Position numbers and translations under genes: made by a program
Origin: an uncultured Clostridia bacterium
GTDB taxonomy: Bacteria > Bacillota > Clostridia > Christensenellales > Borkfalkiaceae
Reading direction: 5' to 3'
Length of the DNA stretch: 64,000 bases
Assembly (NCBI GenBank): GCA_947632195.1
Contig: CANROE010000005.1
Coordinates: forward strand, 1-64,000
In this document: positions 34,758-57,348 of the stretch, in pieces
Numbering within the stretch: the first letter of the stretch is position 1
Layout of the letters: every line of letters starts with the position of its first letter
Notes under the pieces: model-generated
Databases searched by the model: none
Told to the model about the DNA's origin: nothing
Seen by the model: the letters and a program-made list of their open reading frames with translations, nothing else

Positions 34758-34785
34758 CTCTCTCTCCGTTACTTTTTCGCATTTC

Positions 34786-35041: not shown

Positions 35042-35072
35042 ATATGGGAACTCATCAAAAGCGAGGAAACAA

Positions 35073-40865: not shown

Positions 40866-41444
40866 ATGGCAAAGCTGTATTTTAAGTTCGGAGCAATGGG
40901 TTCTTCCAAGACGGCCCAGGCGCTCATCACCAAGTTCAACTATGAAGAGCGGGACATGAAGGTGCTGCTGTTAAAGCCCGCCATGGATACGCGGGACGGC
41001 GATACCGTCGTAAGGTCCCGTATCGGGCTCCGACAGGACGCCATCGCGGTGGGCGAGGAAGAGGACCTTTACAAGCTCTATCTTGAAAAGTACGCCGACC
41101 GCAACGTCATCATCGTGGACGAGTGCCAGTTTCTCACCCCGAAACAGGTGGACCAGCTCGCCGACATCGTCATACAAAGGGACGTCCCCGTGCTCTGTTT
41201 CGGGCTCGCCACCGACTTTACCACCCACCTCTTCCCGGGGAGCAAGCGGCTGTTCGAGATCGCCGAATCCATCAGCGAGATCAAGTCGGTGTGCACCTGC
41301 GGGGCAAAGGCGACGGTGAACGCGCGGATCGGCGACGACGGCAAGATCGTAACGGAGGGCTCGCAGGTCCTCCTCGGCGGCAACGACAGGTATGTCGCCA
41401 TGTGCAGAAAGTGCTGGCTGAAACAGCTGGCGGCGCAAAAGTAA
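40866..41444 (+). CDS. tdk: Thymidine kinase (type II)
   Basis: The 192-aa type II TK phosphorylates imported thymidine to dTMP. The P-loop reads FKFGAMGSSKTAQAL (the family usually has GPMFSGKT). Catalytic Glu is in VDECQFL, and the zinc site has CTCGAK and CRKC. The lasso region is present. The P-loop variant is unusual but keeps the GxxxSKT pattern. Its presence beside Pdp means thymidine can be salvaged or degraded. Confidence 0.95.
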   Translation: MAKLYFKFGAMGSSKTAQALITKFNYEERDMKVLLLKPAMDTRDGDTVVRSRIGLRQDAIAVGEEEDLYKLYLEKYADRNVIIVDECQFLTPKQVDQLADIVIQRDVPVLCFGLATDFTTHLFPGSKRLFEIAESISEIKSVCTCGAKATVNARIGDDGKIVTEGSQVLLGGNDRYVAMCRKCWLKQLAAQK

Positions 41445-41461: not shown

Positions 41462-42583
41462 ATGCAACGGAAATTCGGAAAAATTTTATCTCTGTCTCTT
41501 GCGGGACTGCTGCTATGCGGCGTCCTTTCGGCGGGCGGCGCCGTCCTTCCCGCGTATGCCGAAGAGGACTATTACGCCCCCATCACCGCAACGAAGGGCG
41601 AGGAACTCCTGGGCCAGATCCATGACCTCATCACGACCACGCATGGGCATTACACAACGTATGCTGATTGCAGGGATTACGGTCATACCACCGATTATGC
41701 GGAGGGGGGCAAGATGAGCATCATCGAGTTCTATACGCATGAAACGATTGTGGAATACACACAGAACGGGAGCGACGCGGGCAGGTGGAATCGCGAGCAT
41801 GTATGGCCTAAGGCTTGTTCAAACAATCTTTGGAAAAAAATAAGCAACTCAGAGCGCGGCGGCGGAGCAGATCTTCATCATATCCGTCCTACGGAAGTAA
41901 AGATGAATAGCGCACGCGAAGACGATAAATACGGAGAAACACTAAACGGCAGTCCCGTCTATTCCAAGACGATAAGCGGTACCGATTCGCAGATCGGCGG
42001 CTACCATGCGGGTGGCGTGTTCGAGCCCCTCGACAATGTGAAGGGGGACGTTGCACGCATTCTCTTCTATGTGTACACCCATTATAATACCTATTCCAAC
42101 GTGCACGGCACGACGAACGGTAACACCGACAGTCAGACGGCGAACTATTTCGGAACGCTGAAATTCACAAACGTCATGGCGGCGAGCTCCGAAGAGGCGG
42201 CTATCGAGCTGCTCCTCAAATGGAATGAGCTCGACCCTGTGGACGACATCGAAACGACGCGCAACAAGGAAGTTTTCAAAATACAGGGCAACCGCAACCC
42301 GTTTATCGACCATCCCGAATATGCGGATATGATCTGGAACCCCCCTGCGGAACCTGAGCCTGAACCCAAGCCCGAACCTGTTGAGCCCGAACCCACAGAA
42401 CCCGAGCCCACAGAACCCGAGCCCACAGAACCGAAACCCACGGAGCCCGAACCCTCGAACCCTTCGGACGGCGGGGAGAAAAACCACGCCGCTCTCATCG
42501 GCGGGATCGTCGGCGGCGTGTGCGGCGCGGCCGTCATCGTCGCGGTCATCGTGTTTGTTGTACTCCGCCGCAAGCGGAAATAG
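41462..42583 (+). CDS. Secreted, membrane-anchored endonuclease I family nuclease
   Basis: The 373-aa protein has a signal peptide (residues 6-33, cleavage after AYA). The endonuclease I (EndA/Vvn-like, beta-beta-alpha-metal) domain follows, with RWNREHVWPKACS (catalytic His113) and GADLHHIRPTEVKMN (137-149). A Pro/Glu/Thr stalk with 15-bp DNA repeats comes next. A C-terminal TM helix (about 342-368) ends RRKRK. There is no LPxTG. The nuclease domain would face outward. It is last in the deo operon and should cut extracellular nucleic acids into substrates for the pathway. The upstream in-frame extension overlaps tdk and is not used. Confidence 0.92.
   Translation: MQRKFGKILSLSLAGLLLCGVLSAGGAVLPAYAEEDYYAPITATKGEELLGQIHDLITTTHGHYTTYADCRDYGHTTDYAEGGKMSIIEFYTHETIVEYTQNGSDAGRWNREHVWPKACSNNLWKKISNSERGGGADLHHIRPTEVKMNSAREDDKYGETLNGSPVYSKTISGTDSQIGGYHAGGVFEPLDNVKGDVARILFYVYTHYNTYSNVHGTTNGNTDSQTANYFGTLKFTNVMAASSEEAAIELLLKWNELDPVDDIETTRNKEVFKIQGNRNPFIDHPEYADMIWNPPAEPEPEPKPEPVEPEPTEPEPTEPEPTEPKPTEPEPSNPSDGGEKNHAALIGGIVGGVCGAAVIVAVIVFVVLRRKRK
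42389..42448 (+). repeat. Four 15-bp tandem repeats in the nuclease stalk
   Basis: Units GARCCCACAGAACCC at 42389, 42404 and 42419, plus a diverged unit at 42434, encode EPTEP repeats. Confidence 0.85.
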
Positions 42584-42688: not shown

Positions 42689-42717
42689 TTGACATCTCGG
42701 CCATAAAATGATATAAT
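42689..42717 (+). promoter_or_regulatory. Consensus promoter of the CUT1 transporter operon
   Basis: TTGACA (42689-42694), 17 nt, TATAAT (42712-42717): a perfect match. Confidence 0.88.
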
Positions 42718-42807: not shown

Positions 42808-43107
42808 ATGTTTGATTTGCTGGCACTGAATAAACTCGGCTCGGCGGACATTGTTTTTTTCATCGTACTTGCGGCAATCATCGTACTCTGCATCGGAGTT
42901 TATTTTTTAATTCCCGTGATCAACAAAAAGCAGTATAAAGAATTGCGCGACAATCTTAAAAAACGTGAGCTTGCATTTAAATCAAATGTCCGGCGTACCG
43001 ACGGAACTACGACCGTAGCGAGCGATCTGCCCGTCGCGTCCGACGAGCAGGAGCCGGACGCTTTCGACGATACGCCGGCCGATTCGACGAACGATGAAGA
43101 AAAGTAG
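42808..43107 (+). CDS. Small single-TM protein, 99 aa, unknown
   Basis: A TM helix (about residues 14-38: DIVFFIVLAAIIVLCIGVYF) is followed by a basic stretch (NKKQYKELRDNLKKRE) and an acidic, disordered tail ending NDEEK. GGAGGG precedes the ATG. It overlaps the next gene by 14 nt and leads the transporter operon. I do not recognise the family. It may be an accessory subunit or regulator of the transporter. Confidence 0.8.
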   Translation: MFDLLALNKLGSADIVFFIVLAAIIVLCIGVYFLIPVINKKQYKELRDNLKKRELAFKSNVRRTDGTTTVASDLPVASDEQEPDAFDDTPADSTNDEEK

Positions 43108-44386
43108 GATCTTTGCTACCGTAGTCTATTTTATCTTCACGTTCGGGATCGGCGTGCTGTTTTCATTGACCCTGCCCGGGTATTTCGCCACCTTTACGGT
43201 TCCGGCGGAAATGATTTCGGAGGCGCTCCTCGGCGGCGATTTTGTCACCTGTCTCGTCTTGACGGAGCCGATCGCATTTTACAGAAAACCCGTACTGAGC
43301 GGCAAGTTTGAAAAGGGCGGGGTGTTCTTGTACGAGACCGTGATGGAAGTCTACGACAGAGACTCTGCGGAAAACGCGGGGGAGGGCTCGGACAAGCTTG
43401 CGCGCGGCATGCTGTACAAGTGCTATACGGGGTATATTTACGGCGACGGCTATGACGTATATGCTGAGGAAAACAACGGAACGTGCTTGAAAATAACGAC
43501 CGCCGACGGGAAGGAAGAGACGCTCCCCCTTCTCGATTACGACGCGAACGGGGACGGCAAATACGACGGCGTGTCGACTTACACGCAGAGCGGATTTATC
43601 GTATTGGAACTGCGCGAAAGCGAAGTATCCTCCATCAAAAAACTGAGTTTTACCGACCGTACGGGCACGGAGGTCTTTACGGCCGAGGCGGAAGAGGCGC
43701 TCCGATTCCAAAGTGATTTTTTCGGCTGTTTCGGCGATATCGCGGAATATAACGAGCTCGTCGCTGCGGCGAACAGAGAGGGGATCTCCTCTGCGGAGTC
43801 CAAGGAGATCAACAGCGCGCGCAACGCCTATGTCGATACGGTCATCGAACGGGTAGAAAAAACTTCCGATTGCGCGATCACCGCGCGCTCCGCAGAGTAT
43901 CAGGCGGCGTCCGAGGCGGTGGGCAAGCGCGCAAACAGCAAGGCGATCCCGTTCATCATCATTTACTTTGTGGCGATCTACATCATTGCGGACTTTTTGC
44001 TCGGAACCCACTACATCATCAAATTTTTCTCGTGGTTCTTGTTCAAGGTGTGCAAGATCCCGCGCAAGAAAAAGAAGGCTCCTGCAAACGAGGACGTATT
44101 CGGCCACGATTATTACAGTTCCGTCACACTCAGATTGGATCTTTCGGAAGTTCCCGAGTTTAGCGGCAGCGTGGAGATCAAGTACACCGCAGACGGGGAA
44201 GAGTTCGTGTTTACCCTGTTGAAGGCGGACGGGTATGCGGCGACGGTGCGCATGAAAGCGGGCGTTTACGTCAACCCGTTTATCGACATCGACAGAGCCT
44301 ATGCCCCCGTCGATCTGCCCGATAACCTGATCGTGGAAGGGTATCAATCGGAAACCATCATCAAGATAGTAAAGCGCGAGGTTTAA
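43094..44386 (+). CDS. Membrane protein of unknown function, 430 aa, linked to ABC transporter
   Basis: An N-terminal TM helix (about residues 6-28) is followed by an extracytoplasmic region (about 30-285) with beta-rich and helical parts. A second TM helix comes at about 288-310 (IPFIIIYFVAIYIIADFLLG). A basic segment (PRKKKKAPANED) and a soluble, probably cytoplasmic domain (about 335-430) with SVTLRLDLSEVPEFSGSVEIKY complete it. I do not recognise it. It ends 5 nt before the ATPase gene, so it is expressed with the transporter. Its two-TM, two-domain shape could pass a signal across the membrane; that is a guess. Confidence 0.8.
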   Translation: MKKSRIFATVVYFIFTFGIGVLFSLTLPGYFATFTVPAEMISEALLGGDFVTCLVLTEPIAFYRKPVLSGKFEKGGVFLYETVMEVYDRDSAENAGEGSDKLARGMLYKCYTGYIYGDGYDVYAEENNGTCLKITTADGKEETLPLLDYDANGDGKYDGVSTYTQSGFIVLELRESEVSSIKKLSFTDRTGTEVFTAEAEEALRFQSDFFGCFGDIAEYNELVAAANREGISSAESKEINSARNAYVDTVIERVEKTSDCAITARSAEYQAASEAVGKRANSKAIPFIIIYFVAIYIIADFLLGTHYIIKFFSWFLFKVCKIPRKKKKAPANEDVFGHDYYSSVTLRLDLSEVPEFSGSVEIKYTADGEEFVFTLLKADGYAATVRMKAGVYVNPFIDIDRAYAPVDLPDNLIVEGYQSETIIKIVKREV

Positions 44387-44391
44387 CGCTT

Positions 44392-45465
44392 ATGAAAATA
44401 TCCATTCAGCACTTAACCAAGATCTTTCCCAGCCGTACCAAGGGCGGCAAAGCGGTGCACGCCGTAGAGGACATGAACATCGAGATTCCCTCCGGCCAGC
44501 TCGTGGGGTTGCTCGGTCCGTCCGGCTGCGGGAAGTCTACCACGCTCTTCATGCTGAGCGGTTTGGAGAGCCCGTCCTCCGGCAAGATCTTCTTTGACGA
44601 CCAGGACGTCACAACGCTTGCCGCCGAAAAACGCGGTATCGGGCTGGTGTTCCAGAACTATGCGCTGTATCCGCACATGACGGTGGAGCAGAACATCCGT
44701 TTCCCGCTTGATAATATGCGTATCAAGAAGGAAGAGGGGAACGCCCGTGCGCTCGACGCCGCAAGATTGGTGCAGATCGAGGACCTCATGGCGCGCAAGC
44801 CTCATGAGCTCTCCGGCGGCCAGCAGCAGCGCGTCGCCATCGCCCGCGCACTCGTCAAAATGCCGAACGTGTTGCTTCTCGACGAGCCCTTGTCCAATTT
44901 GGACGCCCGTCTCCGCCTGCAAACGCGGGAAGAGATCAAGCGCATCCAGCGCACCACGGGCATTACCACGGTGTTCGTCACGCACGACCAGGAAGAGGCG
45001 ATGAGCATCTGCGATACGATGGTGGTGATGAAACTCGGCGTCGTGCAGCAGATCGGCGCGCCGCAGGACATCTACGACGATCCCAACAATCTGTTCGTTG
45101 CGAACTTCCTCGGCACCCCGCCCATCAACATTTTCAAGGGAAGGATCGAGGGCGGAAAGGTCTATATCGGCGACGAAGTCATCACCCGTACCTCCTTCGA
45201 CGACCGCGAAGTCTTTGTCGGGATCCGTCCCGAAGGATTCATCTATGACAGAGCGGGGGTATTCACCCTCAATGTGGACCATATCGAGGTCATGGGCAGA
45301 GACAAATCGGTCGTTTCCACGCATGAAAGTTCCACGAAGCCGACCGTACGCTGCATTATCGACAGCGACGTAGCGCTGCCTCCGGACGCCGAAAAACTGA
45401 AATTCAATATCAAACCCTATAAGCTATTCCTGTTTGACGCAGAGACGGAAGAGAGGTTGAGATAA
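44392..45465 (+). CDS. CUT1 ABC transporter ATP-binding protein (MsmK/UgpC/MalK type)
   Basis: The 357-aa ATPase has Walker A GPSGCGKST (about residues 37-45), signature LSGGQQQRVAIARAL, Walker B LLLDEPLSNLD and switch His in VFVTHDQEEAM. A C-terminal OB-type regulatory domain (about 240-357) includes GIRPEGFIYD, typical of MalK/MsmK. It powers the two permeases encoded next. The stop and the following start share one base (TAATG), so translation is coupled. CUT1 members usually import oligosaccharides, glycerol phosphates or related compounds. Confidence 0.96.
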   Translation: MKISIQHLTKIFPSRTKGGKAVHAVEDMNIEIPSGQLVGLLGPSGCGKSTTLFMLSGLESPSSGKIFFDDQDVTTLAAEKRGIGLVFQNYALYPHMTVEQNIRFPLDNMRIKKEEGNARALDAARLVQIEDLMARKPHELSGGQQQRVAIARALVKMPNVLLLDEPLSNLDARLRLQTREEIKRIQRTTGITTVFVTHDQEEAMSICDTMVVMKLGVVQQIGAPQDIYDDPNNLFVANFLGTPPINIFKGRIEGGKVYIGDEVITRTSFDDREVFVGIRPEGFIYDRAGVFTLNVDHIEVMGRDKSVVSTHESSTKPTVRCIIDSDVALPPDAEKLKFNIKPYKLFLFDAETEERLR

Positions 45466-46640
45466 TGGAAGAGAACAAGGACAACATCGATTCGATGCCG
45501 GAAACGCCTCCGAAAAAGCACAACAGGTTTGTTCAATACTTTATCGATCTGGGCGCCCGCATCAAGGGTTGGTTTGTGGACAAGTACACGGCGGTGAAAG
45601 ATTTCTTCGTCGGACTGTTCCAAAAGAAACCCAAAGAAGAACTTGTGCCCGAAGGGCCGCAGCTGAGCCGTGGGGAAAAGATCCGCCGTGGGCTCAAATC
45701 GCAGAGCGGTTGGCTTTTTGTTGCGCCTGCTCTCATTTTGATGGCGGTGTTTACATTTTATCCGATCATTGCCGCATTTATCAATTCGTTCAAACAGGGC
45801 TATTCGGGCATGACGGGAAGATTTAACGGATGGGGCTTTGACAACTTCGTCCGCGTTCTGAAAGGCGACACGGGGACAGGAGGCGCCAACTTTGTTCAGT
45901 GTTTGGTGAACACGTTGGTCCTTACGTTTATCTCCGTGCCTCTTTCGACTTTGCTGGCTCTTCTCATCAGCGTCGCGCTGAATTCCATCAAAAAGGTGCA
46001 GAAAGCCTATCAGACGATCCTCTTTTTGCCCTACCTCACCAACGCGCTTGCAATGGGCGCCGTGTTCGCGACCTTCTTCAAGATCATCGGCACGGCGAGC
46101 AATACCGAAACGGTCGGTATCGTCAACATCATTCTCGGTTGGTTCGGGATCGATCCCGTCGACTGGGTGGGACTCAATTCGCCCCATTGGCAGATCGGCA
46201 GTCTGAGTATCCCATGGGCGAAGTACATTGTCGCGATCATTTATGAGATATGGTCGGGACTTCCGTTCAAGATCCTCATCCTGTTCAGCGCGATGCAGTC
46301 CATCAACAAGCAGTATTACGACGCCGCGAAGGTGGACGGCGCAAGCCGTTGGACGATCCTCTGGCACATCACCGCGCCGATGATCATGCCCCAGATCAGT
46401 TACCTTCTCGTAACGGGTATCATGGGCGGCATGAAACAATATTCGGCGATCGTCGGTCTGTTCGGCGTCACGATGGGGCAGGACTACGACATGGGCACGA
46501 TGGTCGGGTATCTTTACAACTACATCGAACTCGGACAGACAGGTTACGCGTTTGCAGGATCGTTGATGCTCTTTATCATCATCATGATCATCACATGGAT
46601 CAACAACAAAGTCACCAAAAAACGTACGACTTACAGATAA
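45465..46640 (+). CDS. CUT1 ABC transporter permease (MalF/UgpA type)
   Basis: The 391-aa permease has a long hydrophilic N-terminus (about 1-80) and six to seven TM segments from WLFVAPALILMAVFTFYPIIAAFINSF. The EAA loop that contacts the ATPase reads YDAAKVDGASRWTILWHITAPMIMP. It ends in a basic tail (KVTKKRTTYR). It pairs with the MalG-type permease encoded 12 nt downstream. The substrate is not revealed by sequence. Confidence 0.95.
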   Translation: MEENKDNIDSMPETPPKKHNRFVQYFIDLGARIKGWFVDKYTAVKDFFVGLFQKKPKEELVPEGPQLSRGEKIRRGLKSQSGWLFVAPALILMAVFTFYPIIAAFINSFKQGYSGMTGRFNGWGFDNFVRVLKGDTGTGGANFVQCLVNTLVLTFISVPLSTLLALLISVALNSIKKVQKAYQTILFLPYLTNALAMGAVFATFFKIIGTASNTETVGIVNIILGWFGIDPVDWVGLNSPHWQIGSLSIPWAKYIVAIIYEIWSGLPFKILILFSAMQSINKQYYDAAKVDGASRWTILWHITAPMIMPQISYLLVTGIMGGMKQYSAIVGLFGVTMGQDYDMGTMVGYLYNYIELGQTGYAFAGSLMLFIIIMIITWINNKVTKKRTTYR

Positions 46641-46652
46641 GGAGGAGAGAAG

Positions 46653-47651
46653 ATGCCGAAATTTTTCAAAAAGAACAATGCGTCCGAGGCTGTCGTCGGC
46701 AAATGGGATCTCTCCGCAGGCGACGAGGGGTTCGACGCAGAGAAAGCGAAAAAACGGGACAAAGTAAAGCACATCGTCAAAGAAGTTCTCGTCTATGTCT
46801 TTTTGACGCTGTGCGCACTGCTCGCATTCGTGCCGTTCTATTGGATGCTCATGTCCTCCGTCAAGACGGAGATGGAATTCCGCGAGTCCGTTCCCACCTT
46901 CTTCCCGCATGAATTCCAGTGGAAGAACTATTGGATGATCTTCCATCAAGTGACGAGTACGACGAGCGGAGGCGCCTCGTTCGGGCAGATCCTCATCAAT
47001 ACCCTTGTGGTCGGGATCATGTCCACCCTTTTGGGACTTGTCATCATCATTATCACGGCTTATGCTTTGGCGCGGATGGAATTCAAGGGGAAAAACATTC
47101 TCTTCGCCATCATGCTTGCGACCATGATGATCCCGGGCGAACTGTTCACGGTTTCCAACTATATCACGGTTGCCAAGCTGCACATGAACAACTCCTACAC
47201 GGTGCTCATTTTGCCCTTCCTCGTCAGCGTGTATTACATCTATCTGCTGCGGAACAACTTCATGCAGATCCCGAACTCGCTGTACCAGGCGGCAAAGGTA
47301 GACGGATTGAGCGATATGGGCTATCTCATCAAGGTGATGATCCCGCTCACCGCTCCCACCCTGATCTCCATTACCCTTCTCCGCTTTATCGGCACATGGA
47401 ACAGCTACATCTGGCCCCGTCTCGTCAACACGCAGCCGTGGCAGATGATCACCAACTGGGTGACGGGCGGCTTTGTGGATAGAATGCAACCCGACGGGTT
47501 CTCCCTCTATGGCGGCTACTTCGGCTCGACCCCGCTCGATTCCCTCAAAATGGCGGCGGTCTGCATGGTCAGTTTGCCCTTGCTTATCCTGTTCATCTTC
47601 TGCCGCAAATACATCATGCGCGGCGTATCCAAGAGCGGCACAAAGGGTTAA
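46653..47651 (+). CDS. CUT1 ABC transporter permease (MalG/UgpE type)
   Basis: The 332-aa permease has six TM segments, beginning with VLVYVFLTLCALLAFVPFYWMLMSSVKT. The EAA loop reads YQAAKVDGLSDMGYLIKVMIPLTAPTL. A charged N-terminal cytoplasmic region precedes the TM part. GGAGGAG lies before the ATG. It completes the membrane pore with the MalF-type permease. The binding-protein gene follows after 74 nt that hold a hairpin. Confidence 0.95.
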   Translation: MPKFFKKNNASEAVVGKWDLSAGDEGFDAEKAKKRDKVKHIVKEVLVYVFLTLCALLAFVPFYWMLMSSVKTEMEFRESVPTFFPHEFQWKNYWMIFHQVTSTTSGGASFGQILINTLVVGIMSTLLGLVIIIITAYALARMEFKGKNILFAIMLATMMIPGELFTVSNYITVAKLHMNNSYTVLILPFLVSVYYIYLLRNNFMQIPNSLYQAAKVDGLSDMGYLIKVMIPLTAPTLISITLLRFIGTWNSYIWPRLVNTQPWQMITNWVTGGFVDRMQPDGFSLYGGYFGSTPLDSLKMAAVCMVSLPLLILFIFCRKYIMRGVSKSGTKG

Positions 47652-47674
47652 TCGCTCATTATTTACGGTTTCTT

Positions 47675-47695
47675 TCGCGCTCCAAAGGGGCGCGA
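47675..47695 (+). promoter_or_regulatory. Hairpin upstream of the binding-protein gene
   Basis: TCGCGCTCC AAA GGGGCGCGA is a 9-bp stem with one G-U and no U-tract. Such hairpins between permease and binding-protein genes often stabilise the downstream mRNA, giving excess binding protein; this is inference here. Confidence 0.55.
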
Positions 47696-47725
47696 TTGGG
47701 ATAAAATCAAAAAAAGGAGAACAAC

Positions 47726-49168
47726 ATGAAGAAGATTTTAACTGTTGCGTTGGCGAGCTGTTTCGCTCTGACGGGCTGCCTTGCTCTCGGCGCATGCGAC
47801 CAGGGAACGGACTACGATCACACGATCGTGTTCTATTCCTCGCAGGGGCAAGATCTTGTGCCGGTAACAGACACAGCGATCGAGGCGTTCGAGGAAAAGT
47901 ATCCCGGATGGAAAGTCGAGCATTCGCAACCGGGCGGATACGACGAAGTGCTGAGCAAGGTGCGTACCGATCTCACGGCGGGGCTCCAACCCGATCTTGC
48001 TTACTGCTATGCCGACCACGTTGCGCAGTACCTCGAATCGGGTACGGTCATCGACATGAACAAGTTCCTTAAAAGCGGCGAATCGTTCACTTACAGCGCA
48101 GGCGGACAGGAAGGCAAGGTCGACCGCATTGGGTTCACCGAAGCGGATGTTGCAAGCTTTGTCACCGGTTACTTCGAGGAAGGCTATGCCAAGAACTTCA
48201 CGGGGTATGCGGAAGCGGGCCTCACTGCCGACTCGCTCATCACTCTTCCCTTCGTCAAATCCACCGAAGTGCTTTTCTACAATCCCGACTCGCTCTTGAC
48301 CCTCGGCTATAAAGACGAGGCCGGAAAGCCGGTGCCTCCCACAACCTGGGACGAACTTTGGGCAATGTGCGAAAAGGCAAAGCAGCAGTGGCCCACCTGT
48401 ACGCCTCTCGGCTACGACAGTGAGGCGAACTGGTTCATCACCATGTCCGAGCAGCTCGATTTCGGTTACACGAGCGTAGATCCCAACAACCATTTCCTCT
48501 TCAATAACGAAAAGGCGCAAACCTGGCTCCAAGAGATGGCCGGTTATTATGAAAAGGGATATATCACCACGCAGGAGATCTACGGCAGCTACACGAGTTC
48601 TCTGTTCACCAAGGGTCCGGAAGAAGGCGGCCTCGTATTCTGCATCGGCTCCTCGGGCGGCGCAAGCCACCAGGCAGGCACCGGGTTCACGACCGAAGTC
48701 TCTCCCATCCCCGGAATTGACGATACCCACAACCAGTGCATCAGCCAGGGTCCTTCCCTTGTCATGCTCTCGGGCGGCAACGGCGCCAGCAATCCTGACG
48801 AGAAACAGATCATGACCTTCCAGTTCATCAAAGAACTCCTCAGCGTCAGTTTCCAGGCGAAGTTCTCGCGGGCAAGCGGTTACGCTCCCATGCGCACGGA
48901 CGTGTACGACAACGAGGACTTCAAGTTGTTTGTCGACGGCAAGGATGAAGACGGCAAGGGCCTTACGGGCACCAATCTTGTCATTTCCAAGTGCGTGAAA
49001 GCGAGCAGTAACGACGAGTTCAACACGCGTCTGTTCACTTCCCCCGCGTTCGTCGGTTCGTCCACGGCGCGCCAGCAGATGACGAGCGTAGTCCAATACG
49101 TTTTGCTTGGACAAAAGACGCCCGAACAAGCGTTGAGAGACGCCTATAAAGCATGCGGCGGTAAATAA
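47726..49168 (+). CDS. CUT1 extracellular solute-binding lipoprotein (family 1)
   Basis: The 480-aa protein has a signal peptide with two possible lipoboxes, ALTGC (Cys18) and ALGAC (Cys24); the second is followed by a flexible DQGTDYD. The family 1 binding-protein pattern is clear: AIEAFEEKYPGWKVE, KVRTDLTAGLQPDLAYCYADHVAQYL, PPTTWDELWAMCEKAK and VMLSGG. It captures the substrate outside and delivers it to the permeases. AAGGAG precedes the ATG. It is followed within 14 nt by a nuclease-domain lipoprotein, which bears on what it may bind. Confidence 0.95.
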   Translation: MKKILTVALASCFALTGCLALGACDQGTDYDHTIVFYSSQGQDLVPVTDTAIEAFEEKYPGWKVEHSQPGGYDEVLSKVRTDLTAGLQPDLAYCYADHVAQYLESGTVIDMNKFLKSGESFTYSAGGQEGKVDRIGFTEADVASFVTGYFEEGYAKNFTGYAEAGLTADSLITLPFVKSTEVLFYNPDSLLTLGYKDEAGKPVPPTTWDELWAMCEKAKQQWPTCTPLGYDSEANWFITMSEQLDFGYTSVDPNNHFLFNNEKAQTWLQEMAGYYEKGYITTQEIYGSYTSSLFTKGPEEGGLVFCIGSSGGASHQAGTGFTTEVSPIPGIDDTHNQCISQGPSLVMLSGGNGASNPDEKQIMTFQFIKELLSVSFQAKFSRASGYAPMRTDVYDNEDFKLFVDGKDEDGKGLTGTNLVISKCVKASSNDEFNTRLFTSPAFVGSSTARQQMTSVVQYVLLGQKTPEQALRDAYKACGGK

Positions 49169-49182
49169 GATTGAAAACCGAG

Positions 49183-50433
49183 ATGAAAAAATTATTTGTA
49201 GTTTTTGCGGCCGCAGTGCTCGCGGTGTGCTGTGCATTCACGGCGTGCGGCAATAAAATTGCCGACAACACCGAGCACTTCGATTCGATCACCAAAACGC
49301 TCAAACTCACCAAGAGTTATGAGGGCAAAAAGCTCATGAGCGAAGACGGCATCGGCGCGGCGACCTTGAACGGCAACACCACCGACGGCGACACCACCAA
49401 CTTCAAACTGAACGAAGGCGGTTATGTCACGGTGCGTTATCAGGGCGTCAACACGCCCGAAAGCACCGCCGGCGTAGAGAAGTGGGGCAAGGCGGCGAGC
49501 AATTTCACCAACGAGCGGCTGCACGAAGCAACCGAGATCGTCATTGAATCGGCGAGCGGCGGCATTCCCGAAAAGGACTCCGTCGGCCAGCGCTCTCTGT
49601 GCTATGTGTGGTATAAGACCGCCAAGGACGATTTCAAGCTGCTCAACCTCGAACTCGTGGAAAACGGCTATTCCCCGAACAAGGAGAATGCGGACAACGC
49701 CTATTACAGCTATTTCCAGAAGGCGGAGAAATTCGCGCGCAGCATTGAGCTCCGTTTGTTCTCCAAATTGGAGGACCCGCTGTTCGATACGGCGATACAG
49801 GACCTCTCCCTCAAAGCGATCAACGAAGATTCCTCCAAGTTCAGCGAGAACATGAAGGTCAAACTTGACGCCTATGTGTGCGACAGATATGTCGCCTCCT
49901 CGGGCGCGGTGACGCTCACGATCGCGCAGTACGACGATGAGACGGGCAAGGTCTATACCCTCAACCTGTATGCGGGGCACACGAGTTCTACGGGCGCCAT
50001 GCAGATCGGCGATCTGTATCACATCGCAGGCACCCTGCAAAAGTATGACGGAAATTGGCAGATCTCGGGCGTCACGGTAGACAACGACCAAAAGGGCAAG
50101 GATGAAAAGTCCTGGCGTTCGCAGCGCGGCTATTATCTCATGTTTGACGCCGCGAGCGAGTTGTTCGTCAACTATGTGACGAACAACTGTTACGGCAACG
50201 TCACGGTGACCTCCGCAACGCTCGACGGCACGATGCTCACATTCGAGGGCACGGCATTAGAGCCCGGTGAAGACGGTGAAACCGCAAACTTCACCTTCAT
50301 GGTCACTGTTCCCGAGGGGTATAACGGCGCGATCAAGGAGGGGAGCACGCTCACGATTTCCGCCGGCTACCAGTTTGAGGCAAATTCGGGTAAAGTCACC
50401 ATTCCCGATTATTCCAAAATCACGATCAAATAA
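49183..50433 (+). CDS. Lipoprotein with staphylococcal nuclease-like domain and OB-like segment
   Basis: The 416-aa protein has a lipobox ending FTAC (Cys22). An SNase domain (about 40-165) has the DGDT motif (68-71), R85, E93 and R137. The R-to-E and R-to-R spacings (8 and 52) equal those of R35, E43 and R87 in Staphylococcus nuclease. The metal-site Asp40 equivalent is Asn90. A second segment (about 210-310; LDAYVCDRYVASSGAVTLTI, IGDLYHIAGTLQKYDGNWQI) looks like an OB-type nucleic-acid-binding fold. Start set at ATG (MKKLFVV); a TTG 12 nt upstream is possible. It should be exposed at the surface beside the CUT1 binding protein. Confidence 0.85.
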   Translation: MKKLFVVFAAAVLAVCCAFTACGNKIADNTEHFDSITKTLKLTKSYEGKKLMSEDGIGAATLNGNTTDGDTTNFKLNEGGYVTVRYQGVNTPESTAGVEKWGKAASNFTNERLHEATEIVIESASGGIPEKDSVGQRSLCYVWYKTAKDDFKLLNLELVENGYSPNKENADNAYYSYFQKAEKFARSIELRLFSKLEDPLFDTAIQDLSLKAINEDSSKFSENMKVKLDAYVCDRYVASSGAVTLTIAQYDDETGKVYTLNLYAGHTSSTGAMQIGDLYHIAGTLQKYDGNWQISGVTVDNDQKGKDEKSWRSQRGYYLMFDAASELFVNYVTNNCYGNVTVTSATLDGTMLTFEGTALEPGEDGETANFTFMVTVPEGYNGAIKEGSTLTISAGYQFEANSGKVTIPDYSKITIK

Positions 50434-50450
50434 AAATAAGGAGATACGTT

Positions 50451-53400
50451 ATGAGAATCAAGAAGAAACCGGCGCTCATCTTATTGATGATAGTGTCAAT
50501 GCTTTGCCTTATTTTCGGCGCAGTTGCCTGCGGCGGAACTTCGGCGAAGGACGCGATCGAGAAGTACATTCTTCCGCAGAACGAAACTCTCGTAGACGCA
50601 GATTTCACCTTGCCCAAGACGATCGGTACCGGCATTGAGGTAAAGTGGCAGTCGAGCAACACCGACGTCATCGCGATCGAGGACAGCGGCGATAAATACA
50701 CCGCCAAAGTCACTCTTCCCACCGAAGTCACCACGGTCACCCTCACCATTTCGTCGGGCGAGCACTCCAAGAACTTCACGGTGCGCGTCGATGAATTCAG
50801 CGTCTTCACCTTCATCAAGAACTACAAGTTCGCCCAGAAGAACACCGCCGTCAAGGAGGACTTCAAGCTCGAAACCAAGACGACGTACCAGGGCAAAGAG
50901 GCAACGATCGAGTGGAGTATCGACGAAAAGTACAACGCTTGGATCAACCTCAACGCGGCGAAGGACACCGTTCTCGTCACTCCCGCCGAAGAGGTCAAGC
51001 CCGTAGAGATCGCGGCGAAGTTCACCTATGCAGGAGAGAGCGCAACGCAGAAATATTCCTTCTCCGTAACGCCCATTCTCGACCACAGACAGATCGTCAA
51101 GAACATGTATTCGCAGGAAGATTACGCGCTCGAACTCAGCGGTTACATTGTTCATGTCTATCAGGCGCTCATTCATGAGAAGTACGGTCCCGAGGCGACC
51201 TTCTACATGATCGACGACGATTTTTGCAGCGGTTATTATCTCTACAACGTCGAGATCCAGGAGGACCAGGTAGATAAGTATGTTGCAGGTGCGCATGTCA
51301 CCGTTACGGGCGCTACCGGCACGAGCTACAACGGCCTTTGGGAGAACAAGAGCAACAGCGGTCTTGCAGTCATCGACGACAAGGATCCGATCGACCCGAG
51401 AGAAAAGGTCTATGCGATCGACACCGACCTCCTTGCGGGCGCACCTTCCCTGTTGTGGCATGAATCGACCTTTGTCAGCCTCAGCGGTTGGAAAGTGCTC
51501 CACAAGGGCAACTATAATTCCACCTCCAAGACATACGAAAAGCCCACCGGCGCCGATCAGAACCTCTTCACGCTCGAAAAGAACGGCACGGAGATCGTCG
51601 TCCGCATTTCCAAGTATATGAATCGGACGGATGACGAACTTGCCGCGCTCGTCGCAGTCTATGACGACGTAAACGAGGGTGAATTCATCAACGTCACGGG
51701 TATTCTCGGCAACTATAAGGGATTCCAGATCCAGCCCATCGTCGCAAGCGACATTACCAAGGCTACCGCCGAGAGCACGAATACCGACGGCGCCAAGGTC
51801 AAGGCTGCGATCAAGGCGGTAAATGACGCCGTTGCGGCAAACTTCTCTTCTTTGATTGCCGCACATAAGGAAGTCACGATGCCTACCTCCGCAGAGGGCG
51901 TTACCATTTCCTACAAAGTCGCAGGTGCAACCAATCCCACCGTTACGATCAATGGCGGCACGTTCACGATCGACCCCGTAGACAGTGAAAAGAATTACGA
52001 CATCGAAGTCACCTACAAGATCGGCGACTACGCGGCTTACGATTTCTTCAAACTTCGTAATTTGAAGGCAAGTGCCGCACAGCTTCTTGATTTGGCAAAA
52101 AAGAGTGTCGAAGAGATTGAGCTTTCCGAAGTGAAGGTAGCGGGTACCGTTAAGATTCCCGAAGTCGATCTCTATGGCGCAGAAATCGTTTGGGCTGTGA
52201 AAGATGCACCTACATGGATCACCGTTTCGGGCAACACGCTCACGATCAGCGCTCTTCCCGCCGAGGCGACCACGCTCACGCTCACGGCAACTCTTACGAT
52301 CGGTAGCGAAACCGAAACCGCAGAAATTTCGCTCAGCGTTGCAGCCGCCTCCGCGCTCACCTTCAAGGCGATCGAAGCTCCCGCGGCAGGAGATTACATC
52401 TTCGCCCTCTACCAGGGCTCGCTTGAAAAGTGGCTTTATGCAAACGGCGAGATTTCAACGAACAGCAGCGGTGACTTCGGCGCGACGACCGAAAATCCCG
52501 ACGAGGCTGCAACCTTTACGCTTGCGGCTTCCGGCGAAGGCTGGACGATCAAGCTCAAGAGTAGCGGCAAGTTCCTGGAACTCAACGATAATCACCGTTG
52601 GTGCTATGTAGACGCGTCCACGCAGCCTTGGATGTGGAACACCGAGGCAAAGGTGCTCACGTTCACGGTCAGCGGGACAGTCTACTATCTTGGTACATAT
52701 AGTAATTACCAGACGATCAGCGCAAGTACGATCGACCGCATTACCGGCGAGAATTTGAATGCCTCCGGTCAGTATGTTGCACACTTCGGCACTATGGCGG
52801 CGATTGTGCCCGGCACAGAGGACGCTCCTTATACGGTTGCGGAGGTTCTCGATCTTGCCAAAGATTTAGCCGACGGTAGCTTTTATCAGGTAAACGGCGA
52901 AGATGCGTATATCTATATCAAGGGTTACGTTACAGATGCCGGTAAGATTTACACGAACAAGCAAGGGGTTTCGGTTGTAAGTAGCGTTTATATCGCAGAC
53001 GAAGCAGGCGGCACGACGACGCTTCTTCTCTACACCATCGGCTATGGCGATGCTTTGGGCGAGGCGCCCGCTACGGCTCCCACCGCAAGCCCTCTTTCCG
53101 TCGGCGATTACATTGTTATCCACGGCTGTGTGAAGAGATACGGGGACAAGATCGAAGTCGATAAGACTTCTACGATTACGCCCACACTCACAACGTGGAC
53201 GAAAGCCGGCACCACCCAGCCCGAACCCGAAGAACCCACGCTTCCCGAAGGCGGCACCCAGGATGATCCTTATACTATCGCCGAGGCGCTCACGGTTGCA
53301 AAAGCTCTTGACAAAGGCGCTTATACCGCTACCAAGGTTTACATTACGGGTTATGTCGTAGATGCAGGCTCTTGGAGCGACGATTACAGCAACTGGTCGA

Positions 53401-54308
53401 GCATTTACCTTGCCGACAGCGCAGCGGCGAAAAAGGCAGACGGGATTCAGCTTTACAGGCTCAACCCCGATGACATCTATCTGAAACTTGCCAACGACTT
53501 GGCTGTGGGTGCGACAATTACCGTTTACGGATATCTTCAGAATTACAACGGTACTCTCGAGATCACGAATAACACAACAGTGGACAAACAGGACAAAGTT
53601 ACCGTGATTTCCTACACCGATCCGAGAACGGTCGATCAGAAGATCAAGGCGGCGATCAATGCCGTTACCCTTATCGCAAAGGTGGCGGGAGACATCGATC
53701 TTCCAAAATCTACCGTGACAGGTGTAACGCTTGCATTTACGAGCGATAACACGGCGATTACAGTCGGTACCGACAAACTTACCGTAACGCGCGGCACGGC
53801 AGATGTTTCAGTCAAAATCACCGTTTCCGCAAATGCGGAAGGCGGAACGGCGCAAACCAAGGATTTGACGGTCATCGTAAGAAATTCTTCTGTTTTGCTT
53901 GCTTCACTCTCTTTCGCAAAGAAGAGTGACGGACGTGAATCGCAGACTGATGACGCGCAAGTGTGGAAAAAGAACGGAATTACGTTTACCAACGAAAAAA
54001 GTAGCAGTACGAATAAGGTCGGAGACTATGAAAACCCCGTTCGTGTGTATGCGAAGTCGACCGTGAAAGTTGAATATACCTCGGCGGTACAGGAAATTGT
54101 TTTCCATTGCAATAGCACGAGTTATGCAAGCGATCTTCAAAAATCTCTTAACGGAGTTGAAGGCGTCACGGTAACGGTTTCGGGAAGCGATGTTTATGTG
54201 GTATTTGCAACGGCACAAACCTCGCTTGAGTTTACTGCTTCTGCACAGTTGAGATTTAACTCTATCGAAGTTGTGTATAGCACACCTGCGGCAACGGCAA
54301 ACGCATAA
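50451..54308 (+). CDS. Giant lipoprotein, 1285 aa, with bacterial Ig-like and OB-like modules
   Basis: The lipobox GAVAC (Cys27) follows a TM-like signal. The N-terminal part has repeats resembling atrophied bacterial Ig (aBig) domains (VKWQSSNTDVIAIED; later VTLAFTSDNTAITVG). A lectin- or trefoil-like module lies at about 640-780. Two similar OB-type modules begin YTVAEVLDLAKDL (about 792) and YTIAEALTVAKAL (about 940), with YIKGYVTDAG and YITGYVVDAG cores. Such modules accompany YhcR-type extracellular nucleases, but no nuclease domain is seen here. AAGGAG precedes the ATG. It ends the block at a strong terminator. A nucleic-acid-binding role is inferred. Confidence 0.82.
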   Translation: MRIKKKPALILLMIVSMLCLIFGAVACGGTSAKDAIEKYILPQNETLVDADFTLPKTIGTGIEVKWQSSNTDVIAIEDSGDKYTAKVTLPTEVTTVTLTISSGEHSKNFTVRVDEFSVFTFIKNYKFAQKNTAVKEDFKLETKTTYQGKEATIEWSIDEKYNAWINLNAAKDTVLVTPAEEVKPVEIAAKFTYAGESATQKYSFSVTPILDHRQIVKNMYSQEDYALELSGYIVHVYQALIHEKYGPEATFYMIDDDFCSGYYLYNVEIQEDQVDKYVAGAHVTVTGATGTSYNGLWENKSNSGLAVIDDKDPIDPREKVYAIDTDLLAGAPSLLWHESTFVSLSGWKVLHKGNYNSTSKTYEKPTGADQNLFTLEKNGTEIVVRISKYMNRTDDELAALVAVYDDVNEGEFINVTGILGNYKGFQIQPIVASDITKATAESTNTDGAKVKAAIKAVNDAVAANFSSLIAAHKEVTMPTSAEGVTISYKVAGATNPTVTINGGTFTIDPVDSEKNYDIEVTYKIGDYAAYDFFKLRNLKASAAQLLDLAKKSVEEIELSEVKVAGTVKIPEVDLYGAEIVWAVKDAPTWITVSGNTLTISALPAEATTLTLTATLTIGSETETAEISLSVAAASALTFKAIEAPAAGDYIFALYQGSLEKWLYANGEISTNSSGDFGATTENPDEAATFTLAASGEGWTIKLKSSGKFLELNDNHRWCYVDASTQPWMWNTEAKVLTFTVSGTVYYLGTYSNYQTISASTIDRITGENLNASGQYVAHFGTMAAIVPGTEDAPYTVAEVLDLAKDLADGSFYQVNGEDAYIYIKGYVTDAGKIYTNKQGVSVVSSVYIADEAGGTTTLLLYTIGYGDALGEAPATAPTASPLSVGDYIVIHGCVKRYGDKIEVDKTSTITPTLTTWTKAGTTQPEPEEPTLPEGGTQDDPYTIAEALTVAKALDKGAYTATKVYITGYVVDAGSWSDDYSNWSSIYLADSAAAKKADGIQLYRLNPDDIYLKLANDLAVGATITVYGYLQNYNGTLEITNNTTVDKQDKVTVISYTDPRTVDQKIKAAINAVTLIAKVAGDIDLPKSTVTGVTLAFTSDNTAITVGTDKLTVTRGTADVSVKITVSANAEGGTAQTKDLTVIVRNSSVLLASLSFAKKSDGRESQTDDAQVWKKNGITFTNEKSSSTNKVGDYENPVRVYAKSTVKVEYTSAVQEIVFHCNSTSYASDLQKSLNGVEGVTVTVSGSDVYVVFATAQTSLEFTASAQLRFNSIEVVYSTPAATANA

Positions 54309-54339: not shown

Positions 54340-54377
54340 AAAAAACGGACCTTTCCTCTCGGAAAGGCCCGTTTTTT
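54340..54377 (+). terminator. Terminator of the CUT1/lipoprotein block
   Basis: CGGaCCTTTCC TCTC GGAAAGGcCCG has one internal mismatch, is flanked by A-run and T-run, and is followed by TTTTTT. Confidence 0.92.
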
Positions 54378-54704: not shown

Positions 54705-55427
54705 TCACCCAACTTTTTTGCTTATTCGCGTGAGGGCCGAAATATCGGTCAAATCGTCGGTAAGGGGGGTCATCGAAATGTGCCCCGTCATGGTGGCGTC
54801 GGTGTCAAGTTCCAAATTCCGCGTGCCCTCGTATAGGCATACAAGGCGGGGCTTTACCATGTCGCCCTCCAAAAAATCAAACGAGTCGCTGTAAATCGCA
54901 GGCCCCATTCTCGTCACGAGGATCTCCTCTCCCTCGGCGGGGAAGTTCACATTCACGATTTGCGCAAAGTCGAACATTCTCCGCCGCCCGATCTCCTCAT
55001 ACACCCTGTCGAGATTTTTCACCGCGTTCTCAAACGAATGAAACGCCGCTGAAAAGGCGATCGAACGGACGCCCTGCTCCGCCGCCTCGAAACACGCCGC
55101 CACAGTGCCCGAATAATGGATATCCGCGCCGAGGTTGGGCCCGCAGTTGACGCCCGAGATCACGAGGTCGAACTGCTTTTTCATGCCGAGAATCGCGACC
55201 CGCACACAGTCGGCAGGGGTGGAGTCGACGCTGTACGCCTCGATCTCGCCGAACAGGTCCCGCTTTTTCACTTCATAATTGTTATGTATTTCAATGGAGC
55301 GGCTCTTGGCGCTCTGCTGCACTTTGGGGGCAAATACGCACACCTCGCCCAGCTTTTTCGCCCAATTTACGAGGATCTGCAATCCCTCGGCCTCGATCCC
55401 GTCGTCGTTTGTCAAAAGAATTCTCAT
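54705..55427 (-). CDS. surE: 5'/3'-nucleotidase SurE
   Basis: The 240-aa protein has the SurE metal motif ILLTNDDGIEAEGL at residues 3-16. VDSTPADCVRVAI and the signature SGVNCGPNLGADIHYSGTVAAC are intact. SurE removes phosphate from nucleoside 5'- and 3'-monophosphates and short polyphosphates in the cytoplasm. The start overlaps the upstream DHH gene stop (ATGA). It is the last gene of a three-gene operon that could turn oligonucleotides into nucleosides. The stop lies at the edge of a repeat patch and no clean terminator is seen. Confidence 0.96.
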   Translation of the reverse strand: MRILLTNDDGIEAEGLQILVNWAKKLGEVCVFAPKVQQSAKSRSIEIHNNYEVKKRDLFGEIEAYSVDSTPADCVRVAILGMKKQFDLVISGVNCGPNLGADIHYSGTVAACFEAAEQGVRSIAFSAAFHSFENAVKNLDRVYEEIGRRRMFDFAQIVNVNFPAEGEEILVTRMGPAIYSDSFDFLEGDMVKPRLVCLYEGTRNLELDTDATMTGHISMTPLTDDLTDISALTRISKKVG

Positions 55428-56404
55428 ATCAGGTCCTCATGCGTCGCTTTATATTCGCCGAGAAGTTTATCGGCGTCCTCTATAAGCGCGTACATCTCCT
55501 CCTCGGAATACACCGTCGCGCCCGCCGCCATGTTGTGCCCGCCGCCGTGATACTTGATGGCGAGGTCGTTGATCCCGAGAAAACGGGAGCGCAGACGCAC
55601 GCGGATATTCTTCTCCTTCATGTTCTCGATGAACGCCACCCAGATGAGACTGCCTTCGATGTCCGAAAGCTCGCCTACCACGCTGCTTGCCTCCTCCAAA
55701 GTGAGGCCGAATTTCTCCTGTGTGGCCTTATCCATGTAGATATAGGCGACTCCGCTCTTGGTGATGGTGAGATTTTCATACACATAGGCTTTGAGCTTGA
55801 ACGCCTCGTACTTTTCCACATAGAGATGGGCGAAGAGGGTCTCATAGTCCACCCCGCAGTCAAGCAGCGCGCCCGCGAGCCGCAACGTCTCGCCCTTCAC
55901 CCCCTCAAAGCGGAACCTGCCGCTGTCCGTCACCATGCCCATGTACACAAACGTCGCGGCCTCGGCGCTCATCTTCAAGCGGTCCTTGAAAGTGAGGTAG
56001 AAGTCGGCGATCATCTCGCATGCCGACGAGCGGAAATCTTCCACCCAATTCAGATCGCCGTAGGGGTCCGCCTCAATGTGGTGGTCGATCTTGATGATCT
56101 CCTTCGCCAAGCCGTATTTGCTGTTGGAAATGCGCTTGCGCGTGCCCGTGTCGATGACGATGAGAAGGGCGTTTTCATAGACTTCGTCCGAAATCGTGTC
56201 CTCGCCGCCGCAGAAGGCGAGATAGTCGGAAAAATCCTCGTCCACGAGATAGATATTCTTGGCGGGGTAAGTATCTTTGAGGAGTTTTACAAAGCCCTTG
56301 GTGGAACCCACTGCGTCGCCGTCGGGGCGGATGTGCCGCGAAACGACGATGGTTTGATAGCTTTCGATCTTTTCTAAAATTTTTAATTTGATTTCTTCGT
56401 TCAT
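55424..56404 (-). CDS. DHH/DHHA1 phosphoesterase, NrnA-like (copy 2)
   Basis: The 326-aa protein has DHH-domain motifs VSRHIRPDGDAVGS (about residues 20-33), VIDTGTRKR, IDHHIEAD and MVTDSGRFRFEG. The DHHA1 domain ends with YHGGGHNMAAGA. NrnA-type enzymes degrade 2-5-nt oligoribonucleotides and dephosphorylate pAp. GGAG precedes the ATG, which overlaps the stop of the first copy. The two copies are clearly paralogous but diverged, so they may differ in substrate (nanoRNA, DNA dinucleotides, pAp or cyclic dinucleotide products). Confidence 0.92.
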   Translation of the reverse strand: MNEEIKLKILEKIESYQTIVVSRHIRPDGDAVGSTKGFVKLLKDTYPAKNIYLVDEDFSDYLAFCGGEDTISDEVYENALLIVIDTGTRKRISNSKYGLAKEIIKIDHHIEADPYGDLNWVEDFRSSACEMIADFYLTFKDRLKMSAEAATFVYMGMVTDSGRFRFEGVKGETLRLAGALLDCGVDYETLFAHLYVEKYEAFKLKAYVYENLTITKSGVAYIYMDKATQEKFGLTLEEASSVVGELSDIEGSLIWVAFIENMKEKNIRVRLRSRFLGINDLAIKYHGGGHNMAAGATVYSEEEMYALIEDADKLLGEYKATHEDLI

Positions 56405-57348
56405 ACCGGCTCCGATGCGCTCAGCGCGTCCAAATCTTTCAAAAGTTCCATGGCGGTCTCCTTGTCGGGAACGGTGCACCCGCTCGCCTTCTTGTGCCCG
56501 CCGCCGCCGTATTTTACGGCAATGGGGTTGATGTTATAGCGGTTGCTCCTGAGCTCCACATGCACGCCGTCGTCTCCCTCGGTGAAGTTCACCCAAATGA
56601 ACACGCCCTTGATGTCGCGCATGAGGCTCACAAGCCCCGAAGAGACCACGGGCGCCGCGTCGCTGCCTTCGGGCAGATCTTCCTTCGCCGTGTAGATGTA
56701 GGCGACGTTGTTGGGCGTAAATTGTATCTTGTGCATGTTGTCCGCCCGCTGAATGATCTCGGGGAAGTCTTCGGCGTAGAGATTGTAGTAGAGGGTGTTG
56801 AGATCGATGGGCTGCGAAAGGAGGAATGCCGCAAGTTCAAAGGTGCGCGCGGTGGTGGAGTCGAAAGAAAATCTGCCGCTGTCCGTCACCATGCCCATGT
56901 AGAGGGAGGTCGCAGAGGCAGGGGAGAGTTTGAGTTTGCAGCACTTTGCAAACATCGTCACCACGCCGCATGCGCTCTCGTAGGAGCTTTCCACAATGTC
57001 GAGATCGGCGATCTGCTCGCAGTAGATGTGATGGTCGAACCGCAGCGTCTTTTCGGCAAGCTTGTAGCGTTCGTCGCAGATGAGGCGGGAAGAACCGCAG
57101 TCGAGGATCACCGCAAGCGCGCCCTTGTAATAGTCGTCGGGGATCTCGTCGAATTGCACCTCCACAAAGGGGAAACGGGTGGCGACGTCGCCCACCATAT
57201 AGACCTCTTTTTCGGGGAAATTGTCCTTGATGAGATGATACAGCCCCATCTGGCTGCCCAGCGCGTCGCCGTCGGGGTGCGCATGGCGGTGAATGATGAT
57301 CCTGTGATATTTTTTGACCAATTTGAGTGCTTCTTTGAACTTTTTCAC
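56401..57348 (-). CDS. DHH/DHHA1 phosphoesterase, NrnA-like (copy 1)
   Basis: The 315-aa protein has IIHRHAHPDGDALGSQMGL (about residues 18-36), VILDCGSSRL, RFDHHIYCE, MVTDSGRFSFD and a C-terminal GGGGHKKASGC. The start is GTG with GGAG 7 nt upstream. It is first in the operon, with a promoter directly upstream on the minus strand. Tandem NrnA-like genes are seen in some Bacillota, but the direct overlap with a second copy and surE is a tidy nucleotide-recycling unit. Confidence 0.92.
   Translation of the reverse strand: MKKFKEALKLVKKYHRIIIHRHAHPDGDALGSQMGLYHLIKDNFPEKEVYMVGDVATRFPFVEVQFDEIPDDYYKGALAVILDCGSSRLICDERYKLAEKTLRFDHHIYCEQIADLDIVESSYESACGVVTMFAKCCKLKLSPASATSLYMGMVTDSGRFSFDSTTARTFELAAFLLSQPIDLNTLYYNLYAEDFPEIIQRADNMHKIQFTPNNVAYIYTAKEDLPEGSDAAPVVSSGLVSLMRDIKGVFIWVNFTEGDDGVHVELRSNRYNINPIAVKYGGGGHKKASGCTVPDKETAMELLKDLDALSASEPV

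Follow-up and report, generated by a model that had tools for sequence, protein, structure and literature searches.

What does an ATP-binding cassette (ABC) importer of the CUT1 type carry when its solute-binding protein (SBP) is encoded beside a nuclease? The CUT1 family as a whole mostly imports sugars. The question is raised by the window studied here, a stretch of 64,000 nt (positions 1 to 64,000 of contig CANROE010000005.1) from an uncultured Clostridia bacterium whose source assembly, 1.78 Mb in 48 contigs, is 90% complete. Pfam and NCBIfam matches bore out a complete CUT1-type importer at 44392-49168 (ATPase, two permeases and SBP), which a first-pass annotation had linked to two lipoproteins, one of them with a staphylococcal nuclease (SNase) domain, and for which it had proposed nucleosides, nucleotides or oligonucleotide fragments as cargo. 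Four lines of evidence agree with import of nucleic-acid breakdown products: the linkage to SNase, the joint occurrence with endonuclease I and, among genomes of the genus, with pyrimidine-nucleoside phosphorylase (PyNP), the kinship of the SBP with a dinucleotide binder, and its conserved phosphate-binding residues. We consider it very probable that the importer carries some product of this kind. That dinucleotides or short oligonucleotides would be the main ligand is predicted with less assurance, the balance tilting somewhat in its favour. The locus as a whole is best read as a nucleic-acid utilisation locus.

The SBP gene (47726..49168, + strand; SBP_bac_8, E 1.2e-31) is followed by that of the SNase lipoprotein (49183..50433, + strand; SNase Pfam match E 1.7e-10, 41.8 bits against a cut-off of 21). 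The spacing of 14 nt reported earlier was confirmed for the ATG at 49183; the open reading frame (ORF) also has a TTG at 49171. We examined 61 genomes, comprising the source genome and others of its genus (37 genomes in all) and order (24 outside the genus). SNase was found in 23, SBP in 26 and both in 22, and the two genes were adjacent in all 22, one SBP (genome G022) being a fragment at a contig edge. The exceptions were one genome with SNase only (G040) and four with weaker SBP matches only and no SNase (G027, G039, G046, G052). When 84,980 species genomes were scanned, 549 stretches proved to encode relatives, and all counts over 80 loci refer to the best 80 of these 549. They come chiefly from uncultured Clostridia of rabbit and ruminant guts, with a minority of Bacilli and Anaeroplasmataceae, and share at least 10 contigs with the 61-genome set. 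One cultured species, Anaeroplasma bactoclasticum ATCC 27112 from the rumen, also has the locus (L118). SNase directly follows SBP in 76 of the 80 loci, and of the 70 having at least 4 kb upstream, 66 have all three ABC genes. Four loci (L100, L101, L125, L149) fail both linkages, L149 ending at the contig edge past the SBP. The neighbourhood search that the first-pass annotation had called for thus revealed a conserved pairing, and the adjacency of SBP and SNase exceeds chance. Relatives accompanied by glycosidases had been named as a further check. The 80 loci yielded no GH31 relative, but two distant SBPs (L058:9599-11170 and L059:8077-9636), which have ABC genes and keep all ten pocket residues checked, lie in surroundings free of SNase; among seven scanned neighbours of these two, no glycosidase was found.

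Endonuclease I (PF04231) was detected in 20 of the 61 genomes, all within the 22 that have both SBP and SNase, and the two locus-positive genomes without it (G022 and G031) are fragmented assemblies. In the genus, PyNP was present in 19 of 20 locus-positive genomes versus 0 of 17 locus-negative ones; outside it, 15 of 24 genomes have PyNP, mostly without the locus. We placed these distributions on a quick rpoB tree (36 genomes searched, 27 stretches usable, 25 of them of the same genus; branch support by the Shimodaira-Hasegawa-like approximate likelihood ratio test, SH-aLRT, only). For the locus, a minimum of 4 changes is required over the 25 rows of the same genus, and well-supported branches force 3 of them. 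PyNP agrees with the locus in 25 of 25 rows, and three of three independent pairs point the same way, a number too small for significance. Among the 42 loci with 9 kb on each side, we found DHH genes in 23, SurE in 21, a nucleoside-catabolism gene in 17 (one of which, at L101, is a 26-bit match only) and a 5'-nucleotidase in 11; at least one of these or endonuclease I occurred in 28 and none in 14. Since the loci are related by descent, these counts are not independent. As a separate observation, genomes G007 and G019 (loci L067 and L079; rpoB stretches L229 and L235) have very similar rpoB genes and clearly distinct SBP versions, 67% and 42% to that of the window, which suggests locus exchange or contamination.

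Sequence profile, Foldseek and VIA-align all point to one nearest solved relative of the SBP, the CUT1 dinucleotide-binding protein of Thermus thermophilus crystallised with UpG (PDB 7c0*: 7c0f and its mutants), whose Z score is tied (within 1) with that of M. tuberculosis UgpB (4mfi). Identity to the Thermus protein is about 19%, yet six of the eight positions mutated in the crystal series carry the same or a conservatively replaced residue in 54-59 of 59 SBPs, the set over which all SBP residues were counted. The two others, the ligand-region tyrosines Y224 and Y246, are not retained. The Tyr/Ser quartet that holds phosphate in UgpB-type proteins is kept, with Y72 in 54/59 and S179, S309 and Y386 in 59/59. 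In E. coli UgpB, we take the contacts to the glycerol hydroxyls to be Glu89, Gly307 and Arg397. In the SBP family, Gly and Arg are present in 59/59, whereas Glu is replaced by Pro (37), Ala (21) or Ser (1). At the place before Gly307, the SBP and the dinucleotide binder have a common Gln where UgpB has Gly. The Phaeobacter equivalents of these contacts are given in part of PMC12718374. E. coli MalE and YcjN, used as negative controls, could hardly be aligned to the SBP profile locally. In global hhalign alignments over ten pocket positions, MalE retained 1 of 6 aligned (a weak alignment, probability 72%) and YcjN 2 of 8; subject to that weakness of the MalE alignment, the comparison with sugar binders proposed earlier set the SBP residues apart from those of both. 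The SBP belongs to SBP_bac_8 and not to the BMP/PnrA family (PF02608), of which no match was found in the source genome at its 90% completeness; a BMP-type nucleoside system was rejected, as the SBP is of the wrong family. Lipoprotein signals were called by a simple pattern, and in the SBP the lipobox falls on Cys12, the Cys kept across the family being Cys24.

Some SBP relatives stand outside this arrangement. Two paralogues (L100:4199-6883, on a contig shared with L056, and L101:9554-12349) carry a fused metallo-beta-lactamase domain of the ComEC/Rec2 type (TIGR00361, E 7e-17 and 5e-18, under its cut-off) and have no ABC or SNase neighbours. Two long SBPs without ABC neighbours (L125:9299-11281 and L149:9101-11251) include one with a List_Bact repeat domain and one with a long N-terminal extension, cut at the contig edge.

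Kinship extends to the mollicutes. The NCBIfam model of the P68 surface lipoprotein was matched by 38 of the 59 SBPs at E <=1e-3. The class to which an Anaeroplasma genome belongs was represented by 198 genomes, of which 101 reached that threshold with a P68 match and 9 had a match over the cut-off. From those 9 genomes we fetched 20 P68 stretches. The order P68, SNase, ATPase, permease, permease occurs in 8 of the 20 (in 8 genomes), the other 12 being without it. In those eight, SNase is supported by Pfam in six (four over and two just under the cut-off), and is assigned in L203 and L205 from DGDT...DT-E motifs spotted by eye. DHH pairs adjoin in 3 of the 20 stretches, two of which (L208 and L211) are near-identical, with domains confirmed for one gene each in L201 and L208; L201 has no SNase between P68 and the ATPase. 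A profile of the eight P68 proteins matched the clostridial SBPs at E 7e-15, and the pocket residues Y, Y, S, S, Q, G, Y and R are kept while D97/H98 are not.

The same gene order is found in the published operon of M. agalactiae, where the SBP (MAG_5030), the SNase (MAG_5040) and the ABC genes (MAG_5050-5070) are co-transcribed and import of nucleic-acid precursors was proposed, as described in part of PMC3585158; passages of the review PMC9740415 make the same proposal. In M. bovis (MBOVPG45_0307-0311), deoC and pdp lie nearby and the homologue of MslA is reported to bind single- and double-stranded DNA (in part of PMC4045577), MslA of M. gallisepticum itself being a member of such an SNase-ABC operon according to portions of PMC3585158 and PMC4045577. 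In the relevant sections of both papers, the mycoplasma operon is annotated as a sugar or oligosaccharide importer with nucleotide cargo only proposed. The earlier statement that no CUT1 system of this make-up had been described must therefore be withdrawn, as operons combining an SNase lipoprotein, an ABC transporter and an SBP are already in print there. Like these operons, the window combines an SBP lipoprotein, an SNase lipoprotein and a sugar-type ABC transporter, with nucleoside genes near as in M. bovis. It differs in that the ABC genes precede SBP and SNase, in that P68 proteins are longer, and in that an aBig_2/OB lipoprotein, a further pair of membrane genes, endonuclease I and a deo set lie alongside. 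At residue level the comparison concerns P68-type SBPs, not P80/MslA by name. A CUT1 dinucleotide binder has also been published (a portion of PMC12718374 and the title of its reference 32). Among the matches listed in open-licence PMC, the dinucleotide binder appears only in PMC12718374 and none joins it to the mycoplasma operon. What is new is the chain of homology that ties the clostridial locus to both the mycoplasma operon and the dinucleotide binder, and that therefore leads to a specific, testable ligand. DNA-degradation loci of Ca. Izemoplasma, as described in part of PMC8289736, likewise co-localise ABC importers with phosphohydrolases and secreted nucleases, and have a large nucleic-acid-binding/nuclease/lamin-tail protein as well; the transporter inferred in that paper is one for nucleosides or nucleobases, and a phosphate importer is also in the locus.

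The SNase lipoprotein has the predicted fold of its family. An AlphaFold2 (AF2) model returned the staphylococcal nuclease fold in structure searches, and the best 50 VIA-align rows were all SNase. The equivalents of D19, D21, R35, T41, E43 and R87, in what we take to be the numbering of staphylococcal nuclease, are invariant in 50/50 sequences, the set used for all SNase residue counts; at the position of D40, presumably a Ca ligand, the window has Asn (D in 32/50, N in 18/50). The C-terminal part is beta-rich and OB-like. Foldseek aligned the model with the tandem-OB proteins Teb1, POT1, SSB and RPA (E 6e-8 to 5e-5) at a root-mean-square deviation of 13-18, so that a tandem OB arrangement is graded as likely only; Pfam scans of two pieces gave weak OB support. 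YhcR of Bacillus subtilis, whose domains we take to be SNase, OB and 5'-nucleotidase, differs in that at the clostridial locus such activities are split over separate lipoproteins beside the importer. It is a secreted Ca-dependent nuclease that reclaims extracellular DNA, as stated in part of PMC11458576.

The following gene encodes a lipoprotein of 1285 aa (50451..54308, + strand) with three aBig_2 stretches, an OB domain and a weak ricin-type trefoil (E 8e-4). The OB-like modules attributed to it earlier held in part: one OB passed the cut-off in the whole-protein Pfam scan (tRNA_anti-codon, 30.5 bits against 27), a second was weak (E 0.04 scanned alone), and two candidate N-terminal segments gave no OB match in a piecewise Pfam scan of six pieces. 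A PDB sequence search with the protein returned nothing relevant.

Two membrane genes open the importer region on the + strand; the ATPase comes next, then permeases 1 and 2, the SBP, the SNase lipoprotein and the 1285-aa one, and a terminator-like hairpin (54350..54367) closes it. The ATPase (44392..45465; ABC_tran, E 1.3e-37) is UgpC/MalK-like. Its best NCBIfam match is UgpC at 353.8 bits, under the cut-off of 432, and its C-terminal OB_MalK match has an E of 7.6e-05 yet 23.9 bits, under the cut-off of 27. Permease 1 (45465..46640) is of the UgpA/MalF type (BPD_transp_1, E 7.6e-15; UgpA, E 1.5e-12) and permease 2 (46653..47651) of the UgpE/MalG type (BPD_transp_1, E 4.6e-11; UgpE, E 1.6e-30). 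Five related loci (L064:3508-3840, L065:5911-6270, L066:6515-6847, L067:6757-7146, L068:6586-6924) have, between the genes for the ATPase and permease 1, a second, separate match to the C-terminal domain of the ATPase; the window lacks it. The membrane genes encode a small protein (42808..43107, + strand; a relative in 34 of the 80 loci) and one of 430 aa (43094..44386, + strand). In the latter a big domain is flanked by two hydrophobic regions, no Pfam family scored above its cut-off, and relatives occur in 34 of the 66 loci having at least 5.5 kb upstream. Relatives of both are found at 34 loci, Anaeroplasma included, and L160 has an RDD-family membrane protein in that position. The importer had been placed directly after the nucleoside operon. 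Its position there holds, but the two membrane genes (42808-44386) and, in the 224-nt gap before them, a sigma-70-like promoter with a 12/12 match and an extended -10 (42689..42717, + strand) intervene; for this reason the importer probably forms its own transcription unit, predicted to end at 54350-54367. Promoter- and terminator-like sites are consensus matches only, and their total numbers are not clearly above those of shuffled sequences.

The flow that we infer, together with the ligand, from the observed gene content, conserved linkage, conserved active-site and pocket residues and a predicted fold has a candidate for each step between 35.0 and 58.6 kb. Outside the cell, the SNase lipoprotein and a secreted endonuclease I with a C-terminal membrane anchor (41462..42583, + strand; Endonuclease_1, E 4.3e-37; a hydrophobic segment at each end) would shorten extracellular DNA or RNA at the surface, where the OB-domain lipoproteins may hold nucleic acid. 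To judge from its pocket residues, the SBP would grip a di- or short oligonucleotide by the phosphodiester, and the importer would bring in fragments that still bear phosphate; dinucleotides are the likeliest, and oligonucleotides of slightly greater length may also be taken up. Inside, two NrnA-like DHH/DHHA1 phosphoesterases (55424..56479 and 56401..57348, - strand) would yield mononucleotides; both have DHH and DHHA1 domains above the Pfam cut-offs, and both score below the cut-off of 350 of the NrnA model NF053633 (235.9 and 237.7 bits). Bacillus enzymes of this type degrade 2-5-mer RNA, according to part of PMC5593865. Phosphate would be stripped by SurE (54705..55427, - strand; E 6.3e-50, TIGR00087 over its cut-off), a 5'/3'-nucleotidase, and by an NT5C deoxyribonucleotidase fused to a guanylate-kinase domain (57488..58597, + strand; a relative in 14 of the 80 loci). 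Bases and central metabolites would then be released by cytidine deaminase (CDA; 37623..38027; dCMP_cyt_deam_1, E 1.3e-20), PyNP (39546..40847; TIGR02644, 575.6 bits against 409), purine nucleoside phosphorylase (PNP; 35492..36448; PNP_UDP_1, E 7.6e-37), phosphopentomutase (deoB, 36463..37626; TIGR01696, 460.9 bits against 341.2) and deoxyribose-phosphate aldolase (deoC, 35013..35732; TIGR00126, 242 bits against 117.3), with thymidine kinase (TK; 40866..41444; NF003300, 233.6 bits against 195) serving salvage. All these are on the + strand, deoC being the first recognised gene of the set, and the true start of PNP lies downstream of the ORF start at 35492 (domain at about 35792-36415). Also on the + strand is a 5'-nucleotidase/UshA-type lipoprotein (38032..39522; 5_nucleotid_C and Metallophos, lipobox pattern FAGC). 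Upstream of the deo genes, three ORFs of 904, 464 and 431 aa (28508-34868) have no Pfam match. At L079:16051-17947, endonuclease I genes form a tandem pair.

Nucleosides are the rival cargo that survives best, and we hold it to be unlikely. The nucleases and the 5'-nucleotidase lipoprotein would then finish degradation outside, and CDA, PyNP and TK would act inside. Two points keep nucleosides in contention: that lipoprotein and the nucleoside enzymes adjoin the importer, and nucleoside import is reported for a UgpE-type ABC transporter in M. bovis in part of PMC12838404. No CNT carrier was found in any of the 61 genomes and no BMP nucleoside SBP in the source genome (90% complete), and within the genus BMP occurs in 1 of 20 locus-positive versus 11 of 17 locus-negative genomes (Fisher p 2e-4). 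This avoidance, however, is not independent of the rpoB tree, where three independent pairs give no significance, and it is thus a hint only. Twelve BMP stretches (6-16 kb; L172 from a locus-positive genome), a rough control as most are shorter than the 80-locus stretches, contained nucleoside, SurE, DHH and endonuclease genes in 0/12, and they yielded no homologue of the PyNP or TK encoded in the window. Nucleoside cargo would leave the phosphate-coordinating residues without a role, and in M. agalactiae nucleoside uptake has been shown for the BMP/PnrA-type lipoprotein P48, beside the SNase-linked system, in part of PMC12892991; these two points weaken it.

Import of mononucleotides, such as 3'-nucleotides freed by SNase, is more doubtful still. 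The conserved phosphate residues would fit them, UgpB binds small phosphate monoesters (a portion of PMC12718374), and the nearby SurE, going by its family name, removes 3' and 5' phosphates. Against this, the closest structural relative holds a dinucleotide, and the NrnA-like pair would be unneeded. A glycerophosphodiester importer standing beside nucleases by chance is highly improbable. UgpB-UgpAEC, the glycerol-3-phosphate importer, is likewise of the CUT1 type, and its phosphate quartet and Arg are retained, but the glycerol-contact Glu is lost, the Gln shared with the dinucleotide binder replaces Gly, and the neighbours are nucleases (SNase in 76/80 loci, plus nucleic-acid genes) where E. 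coli Ugp has UgpQ. An ordinary oligosaccharide importer with nucleases nearby by chance, to which the habit of the family and a GH31 glycosidase gene 4 kb downstream (58648-60705, - strand) might point, was rejected as hardly credible, given pocket residues that MalE (weakly aligned) and YcjN barely share and a GH31 relative found at 0/80 loci.

Dinucleotides and short oligonucleotides thus stay the preferred cargo, and we lean slightly towards a widespread family of ABC importers for such linear fragments, reaching from gut Clostridia through Anaeroplasma to the mycoplasmas and mostly tied to a surface SNase. If so, this family would supply the transport step in true nucleic-acid utilisation loci, a counterpart of the loci for polysaccharide utilisation, the substrate of the mycoplasma P80/MslA-type 'sugar' transporter would be identified, the mycoplasma operon would become directly testable, and annotations as 'UgpB/sugar transporter' in gut Clostridia would be corrected. 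On the general view, nucleic-acid food enters bacteria either broken down to nucleosides or bases or, by way of the competence machinery, in the form of long single strands. A dinucleotide ABC importer linked to nucleases at the cell surface would add a third route of uptake, one in which the phosphate is kept.

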